DNA of 64,000 nt from Bryobacterales bacterium (lineage in GTDB: Bacteria > Acidobacteriota > Terriglobia > Bryobacterales > Bryobacteraceae). The DNA is taken from NCBI GenBank assembly GCA_020851555.1, contig JADZCM010000001.1, forward strand, positions 62,001 through 126,000, read 5' to 3'. The notes under the pieces were generated by a model. The model was not told the origin of the DNA. It did no database searches and saw nothing but the letters and a program-made list of their open reading frames with translations. The position numbers and the translations under genes are program-made. Below are positions 58,680 to 64,000 of this stretch, one piece after another (positions within the stretch are counted from its first letter, which is position 1; each line of letters opens with the position of its first letter).

Positions 58680-60713
58680 TCAGTAGCGAAGAACGCTCTC
58701 GACGCCGCTCTCCAGGTCCTCCACCGACGGCAAAACGGCCAGTTCGAGGCTGGGCGCTGATGGCACGAAGGTATCTTTGGCCGCCACGCGCACCACGGGC
58801 GCGTCCAGATGTTGGAAAAACTTCTCGGAAATGCGTGCGGCAACCTCCGCGCCGAAACCCATCGTCAGAGTGTCTTCGTGGGCTACCACCACGCGATTGG
58901 TCTTGCGGACGCTCTGGTAGATGATCTCTTCATCCAAGGGAACGATGGATCTCAAATCCACGATTTCGATGGACCGGCCCGTGCTCTCCCACCGCCGGGC
59001 GAGTTCCAGTGCAAGATACACCGCGCTGCCCCAGGTCACGATGGTGGCGTCGGCGCCCTCGCGGCGAATCCGGCCGCGGCCAAACGGGATCAGGTACCCC
59101 TCGTCGGGCTCCGGTGTTTTGGCCTGAACACGGCGGTACAGGCTCTTGTGCTCCAGGAAGATGACGGGATCTTCCGAACGGGCAGCGGCCTTGATGAGTC
59201 CCTTGGCGTCGTCCGCGCAGCTCGGGAACACCACGTACCAGCCGGGGATGTGGGCAAAGGCCGCCTCGACGCAGGCAGAATGCCAGGGCCCGCCCTTAAT
59301 GTAGCCGCCCACAGCGATCCGCACCACGACCGGGCAGGTCCATTGCCCCTGGCTTCGCCACCGGACGGTGGCGATCTCGTCCCGCAGTTGCATGAAGGCC
59401 GGCCAGAGGTAGTCGCCGAACTGAATCTCGACGATGGGCTTGTAACCGGCGATCGCCATGCCTCCCGCGACGCCCACGATGCTCGCTTCGGCCAGCGGCG
59501 AATTCCAGACCTGGTCCGGAAACGCCTCGGTAAGGCCGCGCGTGACGCCGAACACGCCGCCTTTGGGATCCGCGATGTCCTCGCCCCACATTACGATCTT
59601 GGGATTCCTGGCCATCTCCTCCCGCAAGCCGTGGTTGATGGCGTCGATCATGGTGACCGGTTCCTGGGAAATGTAGTGCGGGGCCGCCGGGACCGTGTCT
59701 CCGGGGCCGGCGCCGGAGTAGATGTGCGCCAGCAGATCGTGGTCAGACGGCGCCGGCGCCTGGTCCGCCTCGTCCGCCGCCCGGTCCACCTCGGCCTTAA
59801 CCGCGGCGCGAATCTCCCCGAGGTCTTCTTCTTGAAGCACTTTGCGGCGCAACAAATACTGCTCGGTCTGGTAGATCGGGTCCTGGCGGGTCAATTCCGC
59901 CAGTTCTTCCTCGCTGCGGTACTTGCGCTGGTCATCGGATGAGGAGTGCGAATCGATACGAATGACGCGGCCTTCCACCAGGGCGGGACCTCCGCCTTGC
60001 CGGATCCGCTGTATGACCGGCGGAAGCGTCTGGTACATCGGCTCAAACCAGGTGCCATCCAGGTCGAAGGTCGGCATTGCAAATCCCCGGGCGATGCGAT
60101 GGATCTCCGACACGGTCTGGCTGGCCTGAGGAACGCTGATGGCGTACCCGTTGTTCTGGATCACGAAGAGTACCGGCAGGCGTTCGCGCGCCGCCCAGTT
60201 CAGCGCCTCGAAAAACTCTCCTTCGCTGGTGGCGCCCTCGCCCGAGGAGACGTATACGACAGCGTCCGCGCCATCCCTTTGCAGAGCGCGCGCCATACCC
60301 ACCGCCGGCAGATACTGGGTGCCCGTGCAAGCGGTCTGCGCGACCAGGTTCAGCTCGCGCGAAGAAAAATGCTCCGGCATGTTGCGGCCGTTCGAGTTCG
60401 GATCACCCGCGCGGTTCAGCATCCCCAGGAAGACATCCCGCAAGGGCATGCCAAGACCAATGGGAATCCCCTTCTCCCGGTAGTAGGTGAAGAACCAGTC
60501 CTTGCGCGGCTGGAGCAGCAGGGTCATGCCGATCTGGAGCTTCTCGTGGCCCCGGGCCGAAGCATGGAATGCGCACTTCCCCTGCCGGGCGAAGATCTTC
60601 ATACGCTCGTCCACGTAGTAGACCTTGAGCATTTTTCGGTAGAGGTCCAGAGCCAGTTCGTTGGGAACAATCGCGCGGGTTTCCTGCTGCTGCGGAATTG
60701 TCACGGTAGCCAT
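58680..60713 (-). CDS. Fused E1 alpha/beta of a branched-chain-type 2-oxoacid dehydrogenase
   Basis: A 677-residue thiamine-diphosphate enzyme. The alpha part (to about residue 345) has CAFHASARGHEKLQIGM, the ThDP-binding GEGATSEGEFFEALNWAARERLPVLFVIQNNGYAISVP, and DSHSSSDDQRKYRS of E1-alpha. The beta part (from about 350) has MIDAINHGLREEMARNPKIVMWGEDIADPKGGVFGVTRGL and EASIVGVAGGMAIAGYKPIVEIQF. It decarboxylates 2-oxoisovalerate-like acids and passes the acyl group to lipoyl-E2. E2 and E3 are not in the window. It is divergent from the NsrR-like gene, with a promoter whose -10 is covered by an NsrR-like dyad. Confidence 0.92.
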   Translation of the reverse strand: MATVTIPQQQETRAIVPNELALDLYRKMLKVYYVDERMKIFARQGKCAFHASARGHEKLQIGMTLLLQPRKDWFFTYYREKGIPIGLGMPLRDVFLGMLNRAGDPNSNGRNMPEHFSSRELNLVAQTACTGTQYLPAVGMARALQRDGADAVVYVSSGEGATSEGEFFEALNWAARERLPVLFVIQNNGYAISVPQASQTVSEIHRIARGFAMPTFDLDGTWFEPMYQTLPPVIQRIRQGGGPALVEGRVIRIDSHSSSDDQRKYRSEEELAELTRQDPIYQTEQYLLRRKVLQEEDLGEIRAAVKAEVDRAADEADQAPAPSDHDLLAHIYSGAGPGDTVPAAPHYISQEPVTMIDAINHGLREEMARNPKIVMWGEDIADPKGGVFGVTRGLTEAFPDQVWNSPLAEASIVGVAGGMAIAGYKPIVEIQFGDYLWPAFMQLRDEIATVRWRSQGQWTCPVVVRIAVGGYIKGGPWHSACVEAAFAHIPGWYVVFPSCADDAKGLIKAAARSEDPVIFLEHKSLYRRVQAKTPEPDEGYLIPFGRGRIRREGADATIVTWGSAVYLALELARRWESTGRSIEIVDLRSIVPLDEEIIYQSVRKTNRVVVAHEDTLTMGFGAEVAARISEKFFQHLDAPVVRVAAKDTFVPSAPSLELAVLPSVEDLESGVESVLRY

Positions 60714-60750
60714 AACGCCTCCCGGTTGGGATCCCCCCCCTTCCTCCCCC

Positions 60751-60810
60751 TTGCGGCCATCCCGAAGATCCTGTATAACAAGTATATGAAATACATCTTT
60801 TGCCTGTCAA
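60751..60810. promoter_or_regulatory. Divergent promoters overlapped by an NsrR-type 11-1-11 operator
   Basis: Plus strand (regulator gene): TTGCGG (60751-60756), 17 bases, TATAAC (60774-60779). Minus strand (E1 gene): TTGACA (60810-60805), 18 bases, TATACT (60786-60781). The dyad AACAAGTATAT-g-AAATACATCTT (60777-60799) overlaps both -10 boxes. Its right half equals the 11-base half-site I recall for the enterobacterial NsrR operator; the left half agrees with the inverted right half at 8 of 11 positions. One repressor bound here could block both directions. Confidence 0.6.
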
Positions 60811-60819
60811 GGTCCAACC

Positions 60820-61278
60820 GTGCGACTCACTGCGTTCGCTGATTACAGCCTGCGAGTACTGATCTACCTCGGTCTGCGAGAGGAAGGACTCGTCACCATT
60901 CACGAGATCTCCGACGCCTATGGGTTGTCCGAGAACCACCTGATGAAGATCATCCAAACGTTGGGCAGAATCGGCTACATCGAAACCGTGAGGGGCCGCG
61001 GCGGGGGCATGAGACTGGCCCAAGCGCCCGAAAGCATCAATCTCGGCCGGGTTGTGCGGCAGGTCGAGCCCGATTTTGCCATCGTGGGCTGTTTCGACGT
61101 CCGGAAGCGGGATAAGTGCATCATCCGATCCGCCTGCCGGTTGCAGGAGGCTCTGGGTAAGGCCGTACGAGCCTTCCTGGGCGTCCTCGACAAATACACG
61201 CTAGCCGACCTTCTCCACGGGCCGGACAGGCTCCGGGCCCTGTTACGTATCGAAATGCCGGGAGGCAGATGCGCCTGA
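60820..61278 (+). CDS. nsrR: NsrR-like Rrf2-family repressor
   Basis: A 152-residue Rrf2 regulator with a winged-helix N-terminus (LTAFADYSLRVLIYLGLREEGLVTIHEISDAYGLSENHLMKIIQTLGRIGYIETVRGRGGGMRLAQ) and the three cysteines C91, C100 and C106 (GCFDVRKRDKC...SAC) that hold an Fe-S cluster in NsrR. The C91-x8-C-x5-C spacing is slightly wider than in E. coli. The cluster reacts with NO, releasing DNA. The GTG start is close to its own putative operator. It leads the flavin reductase, NnrS and RIC genes, the classic nitrosative-stress set, so it is likely autoregulated. Confidence 0.9.
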   Translation: MRLTAFADYSLRVLIYLGLREEGLVTIHEISDAYGLSENHLMKIIQTLGRIGYIETVRGRGGGMRLAQAPESINLGRVVRQVEPDFAIVGCFDVRKRDKCIIRSACRLQEALGKAVRAFLGVLDKYTLADLLHGPDRLRALLRIEMPGGRCA

Positions 61279-61307
61279 GGGCGGACTGCGCAAAGGAGAC
61301 GAAAGAG

Positions 61308-62048
61308 ATGAGTACAACCGAAACCCCCACCACTTACGAGGTGAAGCTGAAGGGCCGGCTCGAGGTGGCCGCGGGCACCCTGGCCTTCCAGTTCGAGAAA
61401 CCGGCGGGCTTCACGTTCAAAGCCGGGCAGTACGTGGAATTGAGCCTCATTGATCCGCCGGAGACCGACGCCGAAGGCAATGCGAGGGCGTTTTCAATCG
61501 CCAGCGCCCCTCATGAGGACTTCCTGACGGTGGCGACCAGGATGCGGGACACGGCGTTCAAGCGGGTGCTTTCGAAGATGAAACAGGGCGCCGCGGCCCG
61601 CATCGAAGGCCCGTTCGGAAACCTGGTTCTTCACAACAACCCGGCCCGGTCGGCGGTTCTTCTGGCGGGCGGCATCGGCATCACTCCATTTCGAAGCATG
61701 GCGCTGCGCGCGGCAAACGAGAGGCTCCCGCACCGCATCTTTCTGTTCTGCTCGAACCGGACCCCGGAAGACGCGCCGTTTCTGGAGGAACTGCGAAGAC
61801 TCGAGGCCCTGAACCCGAACTATCGGTTCAGCGGGACCATCACCCAACCCGAGAAAGCCCGTAGCCCCTGGCAAGGGGAGACGGGCTTTTTGACCGCGGG
61901 CATGCTGTCCCGGTTCCTGAAGGAAGCCGTTACGCCGGTGTACTACCTGGCCGGCCCTCCCGGCATGGTGGCTGCCGTCCGGACCGTACTGGCGAATCTG
62001 GGCGTGGATGATGACGATATCCGCACCGAGGAATTTGCCGGGTATTGA
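61308..62048 (+). CDS. FAD/NAD-dependent oxidoreductase, flavohemoglobin reductase-like
   Basis: 246 residues from the ATG at 61308 (AAAGGAG upstream). A ferredoxin-reductase-type module: FAD-binding ARAFSIASAPHEDFL near residue 63, EGPFGNLVL, NAD-binding LLAGGIGITPFRSMALRA near residue 120, and PVYYLAGPPGMVAAVRTVL with a C-terminal EEFAGY. It is the reductase half of flavohemoglobin (Hmp) without a globin domain, so it probably gives electrons to a separate partner. It sits between nsrR and nnrS, 29 bases after nsrR. Confidence 0.85.
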   Translation: MSTTETPTTYEVKLKGRLEVAAGTLAFQFEKPAGFTFKAGQYVELSLIDPPETDAEGNARAFSIASAPHEDFLTVATRMRDTAFKRVLSKMKQGAAARIEGPFGNLVLHNNPARSAVLLAGGIGITPFRSMALRAANERLPHRIFLFCSNRTPEDAPFLEELRRLEALNPNYRFSGTITQPEKARSPWQGETGFLTAGMLSRFLKEAVTPVYYLAGPPGMVAAVRTVLANLGVDDDDIRTEEFAGY

Positions 62049-62050
62049 AG

Positions 62051-63403
62051 ATGGGCGCCAAGACCGGCCTGGGCACGGGCAGCGTGGATTACCAGGCGCT
62101 CAGAGAGCGCGAAGCCGGGCTGCAACGGATGCTGATGGTCTGGATCGTCACCGGCCTGGCCTTCATGCTCCTGCCCGGCACCTTTCTCGGAGTCTGGAAC
62201 CTGATCGCGATTGCAGGTGAACACACTGCCGCCCGAGTGGATCCGGCGTGGATCCAGGCTCACGGGCACGCCCAGATCTTCGGTTGGATCGGGACCTTCA
62301 TTCTGGGCATCGGCTTTTACTCCCTCACCAAGATGGGGCGCATCCCGGAATTCGCGATCGCTCGTGCCTGGGTGAGTTGGGCGCTGTGGACCCTGGGCGT
62401 GGCCTTGCGCTGGGCGACGAATCTCTGGCTGTGGCAGTGGCGGTGGCTGCTGCCGGCGTCAGCCGTGCTCGAACTCTGCGGCTTGCTGGTGTTTCTGATG
62501 ACGGTTGGCGGCCACCGCACGGGAGCGGGCCGAACGCAGCAGGGCGCGGTGGGCGGGCAGGTGTGGATGATCGCAGTGGGAGCCGGAAGCGCCGGATTCC
62601 TGGCCAGCCTGGCCGCGAACCTGATCCTCACGTTCCAGGCGGCGCTCACGGGAGCGGGCCCGGCCGTTTCGCACGGCGTCAATCAGCGCTTGCTGGTCCT
62701 GTTCACGTGGGCATTCCCGGTGGTCATCATCTGGGGCTTCAGCGCGCGCTGGTTGCCGGTGTTTCTTGGCCTGGCGAATCAAAGGCCCCGAGCCTTGGAA
62801 GCCGCGCTGGCGGTGAACGTGGCGGGTGTTGGCGCGGCCATGGCGGGATGGTGGTTGGCTGCCGGCGCCGCATTCCTCGCGGCGTCGGGCCTGGCCGCAG
62901 TCTCGCTGCGGGTGCTAGGGCCGTCCGTCAGGCCGCCGAAGATTATCGGCGTGCACCCCGCCTTTCCGCTTTTCGTCCGCATCGCCTACGTCTGGCTGTT
63001 GATCGCGGCCGCCATTTCCGTGAGCGCGGCGCTGTGGGACAGGTCGGGCGGGCTGTGGGGCGCGTCGCGGCACGCCCTGACGGTCGGCTTCATGTCCACC
63101 ATGGTCTTCGCCATTGGCCAGCGCGTTTTGCCCGCCTTCTGCGGGATGCGCATTCTCTACAGCCCGCGATGGATGGGCGCGTCGTTGTGGCTGCTGGCCG
63201 TTGGATGCTTCTTGAGAGTGGCCTCGGAGATCGGCGCGTACGAATCCTACGCGCCATTCTTGTGGCCCTTGCTGCCGGTTTCCGCGGTCATCGAGATGAT
63301 CGCGGTCACGGTCTTTGCCGGTAATCTCCTGCTCACGCTTAGCAGGACTCCGGCGCATCTGGCCGGGACAGGCTCTGCCGGCTGGCGGCTCACCGCCGCG
63401 TGA
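62051..63403 (+). CDS. nnrS: NnrS-family membrane protein
   Basis: About 450 residues with about 12 hydrophobic helices. The start is either a TTG at 62045 overlapping the previous stop or the ATG at 62051; I use the ATG. NnrS-like parts: AWIQAHGHAQIFGWIGTFILGIGFYSL near residue 70, SHGVNQRLLVLFTWAFPVVIIWGFSARWLPVFLGL in the middle, and GASRHALTVGFMSTMVFAIGQRVLPAFCGMRILYSP near residue 335. NnrS proteins help cells resist NO and carry heme and copper in some species. Here they are directly in the NsrR operon. Confidence 0.88.
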   Translation: MGAKTGLGTGSVDYQALREREAGLQRMLMVWIVTGLAFMLLPGTFLGVWNLIAIAGEHTAARVDPAWIQAHGHAQIFGWIGTFILGIGFYSLTKMGRIPEFAIARAWVSWALWTLGVALRWATNLWLWQWRWLLPASAVLELCGLLVFLMTVGGHRTGAGRTQQGAVGGQVWMIAVGAGSAGFLASLAANLILTFQAALTGAGPAVSHGVNQRLLVLFTWAFPVVIIWGFSARWLPVFLGLANQRPRALEAALAVNVAGVGAAMAGWWLAAGAAFLAASGLAAVSLRVLGPSVRPPKIIGVHPAFPLFVRIAYVWLLIAAAISVSAALWDRSGGLWGASRHALTVGFMSTMVFAIGQRVLPAFCGMRILYSPRWMGASLWLLAVGCFLRVASEIGAYESYAPFLWPLLPVSAVIEMIAVTVFAGNLLLTLSRTPAHLAGTGSAGWRLTAA

Positions 63404-63458: not shown

Positions 63459-64000
63459 ATGCTGGGAATACAGGAACAAACAGTGGGACAGATCGCCGCC
63501 AGTTCACTGGCCGCGGTGAAGGTTTTCGAGCGGCTGGGGATCGACTATTGCTGTGGGGGCAATCGTCCCCTGGCCGAGGTCTGCCAGGAGAAGGGTCTGG
63601 ATCCGTCAGCCCTCCAGGGTGAACTGGAGTCGGCGATGAGCGCGGCTTCGGCGGATGCCGAGGACTGGAGCGCGGCGCCGCTGCGGGAACTCATCGCGCA
63701 CATCCTGAAGACGCACCACGAGTACCTGAAGCGCGAACTGGGCCCACTCGGTGCGCGTCTGGACAAGGTGTACCGCGTCTACAACGAGAAGTACGGCCCC
63801 ACGCTGACTGGCCTGCCGGAAGTCTACGACGGTCTGCGAGCCGAGTTGGAAATGCACATGCACAAGGAGGAGATGATTCTGTTTCCTTCGATCGGCTCTT
63901 ATGAGGCGGCGGCTCAGTCGGGCTCGCCGCTGCCGCGAACTCCCTTCGGGAGCATCGCCAACCCGATCCGGATGATGGAAGCAGAACACGACAGCGCCGG
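63459..64000 (+). CDS. ric: Iron-sulfur cluster repair di-iron protein RIC (YtfE/ScdA), cut by window end
   Basis: The ATG at 63459 (GAGGA upstream) opens the family N-terminal domain: TVGQIAASSLAAVKVFERLGIDYCCGGNRPLAEVC with the conserved Cys-Cys. The hemerythrin-like part then has LIAHILKTHHEYLKRELGPL, LEMHMHKEEMILFPSIGSYE and MMEAEHDSAG, which carry the His/Glu di-iron ligands; the rest is beyond 64000. RIC repairs Fe-S clusters damaged by NO or peroxide. It is the fourth gene of the nsrR-led set, 55 bases after nnrS. Only about 180 residues are visible. Confidence 0.93.
   Translation, partial: MLGIQEQTVGQIAASSLAAVKVFERLGIDYCCGGNRPLAEVCQEKGLDPSALQGELESAMSAASADAEDWSAAPLRELIAHILKTHHEYLKRELGPLGARLDKVYRVYNEKYGPTLTGLPEVYDGLRAELEMHMHKEEMILFPSIGSYEAAAQSGSPLPRTPFGSIANPIRMMEAEHDSA

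Follow-up and report, generated by a model that had tools for sequence, protein, structure and literature searches.

In the 64,000-nt window analysed here (Bryobacterales bacterium GCA_020851555.1, contig JADZCM010000001.1, positions 62,001 to 126,000 of the forward strand), a 106-bp gap separates a gene for a fused alpha-beta 2-oxoacid dehydrogenase E1 from a divergent gene for an NsrR-type Rrf2 regulator (Table 1). Downstream of the regulator gene lie an oxidoreductase gene, which also follows nsrR in L081 and L111 and occurs at the same locus in L094, and the NnrS and RIC genes, which bear out the NO-defence operon of the initial annotation. The RIC protein, partial in the window, reaches 148.9 bits against TIGR03652.

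Table 1. Features of the E1-nsrR locus in the window, and genes found opposite or beside E1 or nsrR at related loci.
Feature	Position	Strand	Basis or remark
Fused alpha-beta 2-oxoacid dehydrogenase E1, 677 aa	58680-60713	-	PF00676, PF02779, PF02780 above cut-off
nsrR promoter -35, TTGCGG	60751-60756	+	TTG invariant in 8 aligned loci; TTGCAA in most relatives
nsrR promoter -10, TATAAC	60774-60779	+	TATAA invariant; 91% mean pairwise identity
Predicted NsrR-type operator dyad, AACAAGTATAT-G-AAATACATCTT	60777-60799	none	Kept in 9/9 loci
E1 promoter -10, TATACT, within dyad	60781-60786	-	Promoter scan
E1 promoter -35, TTGACA, beyond dyad	60805-60810	-	93% mean pairwise identity, against 37-46% for neighbouring bases
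NsrR-type Rrf2 regulator, 152 aa, GTG start	60820-61278	+	PF02082
FAD/NAD oxidoreductase, flavohaemoglobin-reductase-like	61269-62048	+	PF00175; partial match to NF009805
NnrS-family membrane haem protein	62045-63403	+	PF05940 above cut-off
RIC/YtfE/ScdA di-iron repair protein, cut by window end	63459-64000	+	PF04405, PF01814
Crp-family genes opposite E1	L103:4786-5484; L104:5295-5999; L199 (G084)		
Protein of about 500 aa	L080:10570-12075; L084:6276-7733; L107:1218-2735		No Pfam match

Sequence analysis revealed that the regulator scores 122 bits (cut-off 30) against the Rrf2 domain PF02082, of the winged-helix family. It reaches 139.6 bits against the NCBIfam NsrR equivalog NF008240, under the cut-off of 182, and 128.2 bits against the NCBIfam RirA model, under the cut-off of 193 and 11 bits behind NsrR. 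Given that the score lies below the NsrR equivalog cut-off, we term the protein NsrR-type rather than a certified member. Its closest solved relative is Streptomyces NsrR. Asp8, Cys91, Cys99/100 and Cys105/106 are present in all of the 12 sequences listed (D8, C91, C100 and C106 in the window protein); from the solved Streptomyces protein, we take the Asp and three Cys to be the cluster ligands. The initial naming of the gene as NsrR thus holds for the Rrf2 domain, these four residues and the overall likeness, and falls short at the equivalog score.

The E1 chain holds all three of the E1_dh, pyrimidine-binding and C-terminal domains. No E2 or E3 gene lies near it in the window, and none of the loci examined has an E2 gene near E1; the other E1, E2 and E3 genes of the host genome lie elsewhere. 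The best PDB matches mix pyruvate and branched-chain types, and the NCBIfam models matched are those of pyruvate dehydrogenase (PDH), with every score under cut-off. Since family scores do not separate the two types, the fused E1 of the initial annotation stands, with branched-chain specificity as one of two candidates. The gene is accessory, with strong matches at a strict score cut-off in 30 of the 237 family genomes screened. In G008 (L106), the E1 copy looks broken by frame changes. At three loci, a protein of about 500 residues lies beside E1 or replaces it opposite nsrR (Table 1).

Both promoters and the dyad across their -10 boxes were already correct in sequence and coordinates in the initial annotation. 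The nsrR promoter has a 17-nt spacer (TTGCGG-17-TATAAC) and the minus-strand E1 promoter an 18-nt spacer (TTGACA-18-TATACT). The latter is the sole sigma-70-like promoter from a scan of 60650-60880 (11/12, against 0.2 expected in shuffles). The dyad overlaps three bases of the nsrR -10 and contains the entire E1 -10. Only one base separates the two -10 boxes, and the predicted start of each transcript therefore falls inside the other promoter. The dyad is imperfect, with 8 of 11 positions pairing between its arms (11-1-11), and matches an NsrR-like consensus at 19 of 22 positions. It fits the published NsrR motif gATGyAT-N5-ATrCATc (Rodionov et al. 2005, PMC1274295) at 12 of 14 positions and is its one occurrence with up to two mismatches in 64 kb, against 0.21 expected; at three mismatches, 3.3 are expected in the window. 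Because 0.21 occurrences are expected by chance, the dyad sequence alone is mildly unusual and weak evidence. A matrix derived solely from the sites of other genomes scores 42.4 at the dyad, compared with 15.5 at the next distinct window site and 14.3 for the best of 20 shuffles. A second occurrence of AAGTATATNAAATACATCTT with up to three mismatches was not found in the 3.69-Mb genome.

The relatives compared belong to the same family (Bryobacteraceae/Bryobacterales), in which the divergent E1-nsrR pair recurs. The NsrR-type E1 set comprises nine E1 genes, an 80%-identity group from six genera; at two of these loci (L077 and L078) the contig stops within nsrR. The initial annotation had made its reading depend on conservation of the dyad in relatives with the same gene pair. 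We found the dyad 75-94 nt upstream of E1 in all nine loci, and both promoters are kept as well; the E1-regulator pairing is hence under selection. Mean pairwise identity is 83% for the dyad (92% for its right arm), with the nsrR -10 and E1 -35 values given in Table 1. Other parts of the gap score lower: the nsrR leader has 37%, the five bases that part the dyad from the E1 -35 have 46%, the spacer within the nsrR promoter 48% and the leader of E1 52%. Given this high identity between diverged flanks, the hexamers serving E1 are kept, and one of these, the -35, lies beyond both the operator and the nsrR promoter. At the G002 locus (L108), where nsrR and the gene divergent from it each have an operator of their own, TTGACA accompanies the divergent gene and does not occur on the side facing nsrR. 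A further idea, that TGTCAA is conserved simply because it belongs to the nsrR leader, is weakened by L108, where the nsrR side lacks it, and by the low identity just downstream. In the E1 tree, all nine NsrR-dyad genes fall into one clade (97/100), and the E1 genes with Crp-type sites lie elsewhere in the family. Thus, the arrangement arose once and was then kept, rather than originating repeatedly.

The same matrix was run over 497 kb of sequence surrounding E1 and nsrR loci, where a shuffled control gave six matches scoring above 9. It placed predicted sites before methyltransferase genes in L078, L081 and L107, and before DUF488/NADH dehydrogenase and hemerythrin genes in L079, L109 and contig C39 of the host genome. 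Whole genomes were searched by pattern instead of matrix, the relaxed form allowing three mismatches. Away from the locus, control matches to this form were about as numerous as real ones in most genomes, and isolated three-mismatch matches were therefore discarded. Divergently transcribed hemerythrin and DUF488-NADH dehydrogenase genes flank the sole extra site in the host genome (G000:C39:45278-45300; L128, L156). This site was retained solely on the ground that these genes also have one in other genera: it lies in the promoter of DUF488 or of hemerythrin in L079, L109, L094 and, weakly, L084. From sites and gene order together, we predict a regulon of NO-defence genes that includes NnrS, RIC, hemerythrin and methyltransferase loci.

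Outside the window's clade, this dyad is absent from the E1 relatives. Among the 22 non-clade family loci with a readable E1 upstream region, 12 have the Crp-type palindrome GTGACnnnnGTCAC instead, roughly 45-63 nt upstream of E1; it is exact in nine (about 49-63 nt from the E1 start) and has a single mismatch in three. With up to one mismatch, the shuffle control gave 15-20 matches in the entire 497 kb. The palindrome also precedes RIC and NnrS genes and, in L086, a hemerythrin gene. At four loci of one genus, E1 lies about 70 nt behind an NnrS gene of the same orientation, and the motif precedes that NnrS gene. Three genomes, G018, G116 and G084, mirror the nsrR arrangement by means of an unrelated regulator: a Crp-family gene points away from E1, and GTGACnnnnGTCAC lies in the gap between the two. 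G230 has its nsrR locus 2.6 kb away, yet its E1 bears a Crp-type site instead. A second NsrR-type gene in G099 is divergent from a hemerythrin-E1-RIC-NnrS series, with the dyad AAGATATATGTGGAATATATCTT between, and its orthologue in G126 is divergent from E1. In all, about 27 of 31 family E1 loci have an N-oxide regulatory or operon link of some sort. At 20 E1 loci of other families, and likewise at three further E1 loci in the window's genome, there is neither such a site nor an NO gene near E1. The best reading of this distribution is that an accessory orphan E1 was recruited into N-oxide regulons under unrelated regulators.

Confinement of the Crp-type regulator to Crp-site genomes was considered and holds only for its close form (64-100%). 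Nearly every genome searched, among them those of the NsrR type, has a 41-48% homologue whose recognition helix is the same. A candidate N-oxide operon lies at L087-L092, where genes for an NnrS-DUF1858 fusion, hemerythrin, RIC, DUF2249, cupin and radical-SAM proteins form a cluster with a run of several GTGACnnnnGTCAC sites. Genes for a NarK-type transporter and a molybdopterin oxidoreductase lie near E1 in G099, G100 and G126 (loci L095, L097 and L110); in L095 and L110 they adjoin a second NsrR-type regulator.

The anatomy of the locus, its conservation and the genomic tie of E1 to N-oxide genes and operators enable us to propose a putative model. E1 is probably switched on together with the NO-defence genes via one shared predicted operator. 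We consider it likely that this single NsrR-type operator, lying at both -10 boxes, represses the nsrR operon and E1 until NO attack; binding, repression and the response to NO are here inferred from sequence features. Initially, holo-NsrR, a predicted [4Fe-4S] dimer, would block nsrR with its reductase, NnrS and RIC genes, and the divergent E1 equally. Afterwards, NO attack on the cluster would free both promoters together. Since each predicted start lies inside the other promoter, both could not be occupied at once, and with such mutually exclusive promoters, operator release would split polymerase between the defence operon and E1.

The likely purpose, which is the least certain step of the model, would be more 2-oxoacid decarboxylation and reductive acylation of lipoyl-E2 while NO damages lipoyl enzymes. 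The initial annotation held lipoyl-based 2-oxoacid dehydrogenases to be poisoned by NO, which is documented for mammalian complexes. In mammalian cells, NO-derived species modify and inhibit the lipoyl arms of PDHC and OGDC (PMC9974485), and BCKDC is reported to be inhibited by reactive nitrogen species (PMC10656228); the damage falls on the E2 lipoyl arm, not on E1 (PMC9974485). E1 is not the known NO target within lipoyl complexes, and extra E1 would presumably favour reloading of lipoyl-E2. More tentatively, and with the balance leaning somewhat against it, E1 may be a dedicated nitrosative-stress isoenzyme, an orphan that separate lineages of one family have placed under unrelated N-oxide-linked control by NsrR, NsrR2 or Crp-type regulators and that keeps lipoyl-E2 loaded, so that lipoyl chemistry could continue or help to remove NO-derived species.

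NsrR genes are often autoregulated, and many divergent genes are not co-regulated. The operator might accordingly serve only nsrR and its operon, with the E1 promoter constitutive or separately controlled and the overlap incidental; G230, which keeps an nsrR locus while its E1 has another control element, would fit. We regard this as unlikely, given that the E1 -35 is selectively conserved, that TTGACA stays with the divergent side once the promoters are separated (L108) and that other routes, too, have brought E1 into N-oxide regulons. Furthermore, with the E1 -10 inside the operator, a bound repressor must obstruct the E1 promoter. Sensing of iron, Fe-S supply or redox state in the manner of RirA or IscR, which would tie E1 to Fe-S status instead of NO, seems a very improbable role for the Rrf2 protein. 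Rrf2 sensors have one fold in common, and the RirA score (128 bits) approaches that of NsrR (140 bits), both under cut-off; however, the Asp at position 8 and three Cys are as in solved NsrR, the nearby targets are NnrS, RIC and hemerythrin genes, and the operator agrees with the published NsrR motif in all but two of its 14 positions. It is also quite unlikely that E1 belongs to a low-oxygen or nitrate-growth programme in which NO is not the key signal. The genes for a NarK-type transporter and a molybdopterin oxidoreductase close to E1 in G099, G100 and G126 would suit such a programme, and the Crp-type sites could respond to oxygen or to a different signal, but the window's clade has an NsrR-type regulator and its nearest genes are those of NO repair and detoxification.

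Shared control of E1 and the defence operon by NsrR would extend a regulon known for NO detoxification and repair. A conserved operator common to these genes and a central carbon enzyme points to metabolic accommodation as one component of the NO response, at the 2-oxoacid/lipoyl step that NO-derived species are known to affect, and the persistence of the N-oxide link in sister lineages, where another regulator family stands at the same E1, supports this suggestion. The E1-nsrR gap offers a concrete, testable promoter and gene.

In the titles and abstracts listed from the freely accessible literature, we found no link of NsrR with a 2-oxoacid, pyruvate or branched-chain dehydrogenase. Solved pyruvate and branched-chain E1 structures (1um9, 1ik6 and 1qs0) have all three domains in the same alpha and beta order, whereas the window E1 is fused in one chain, orphan and accessory. 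The geometry of the candidate site GTGACnnnnGTCAC matches the HcpR/CRP-type consensus wTGTGAnnnnnnTCACAw (PMC1274295), and the recognition helix of the divergent Crp-family regulator has R-E..R, as predicted by Rodionov's rule. Unlike in the HcpR/CRP-type regulons described there, its predicted targets here are E1, RIC, NnrS and hemerythrin genes. Known NsrR regulons, which include dnrN/ytfE (RIC) and a tehB-like methyltransferase gene (PMC1274295), resemble the present one in the Rrf2 repressor, the matching operator motif and the RIC and methyltransferase targets; the window differs from them in having a 2-oxoacid dehydrogenase E1 as the divergent target.
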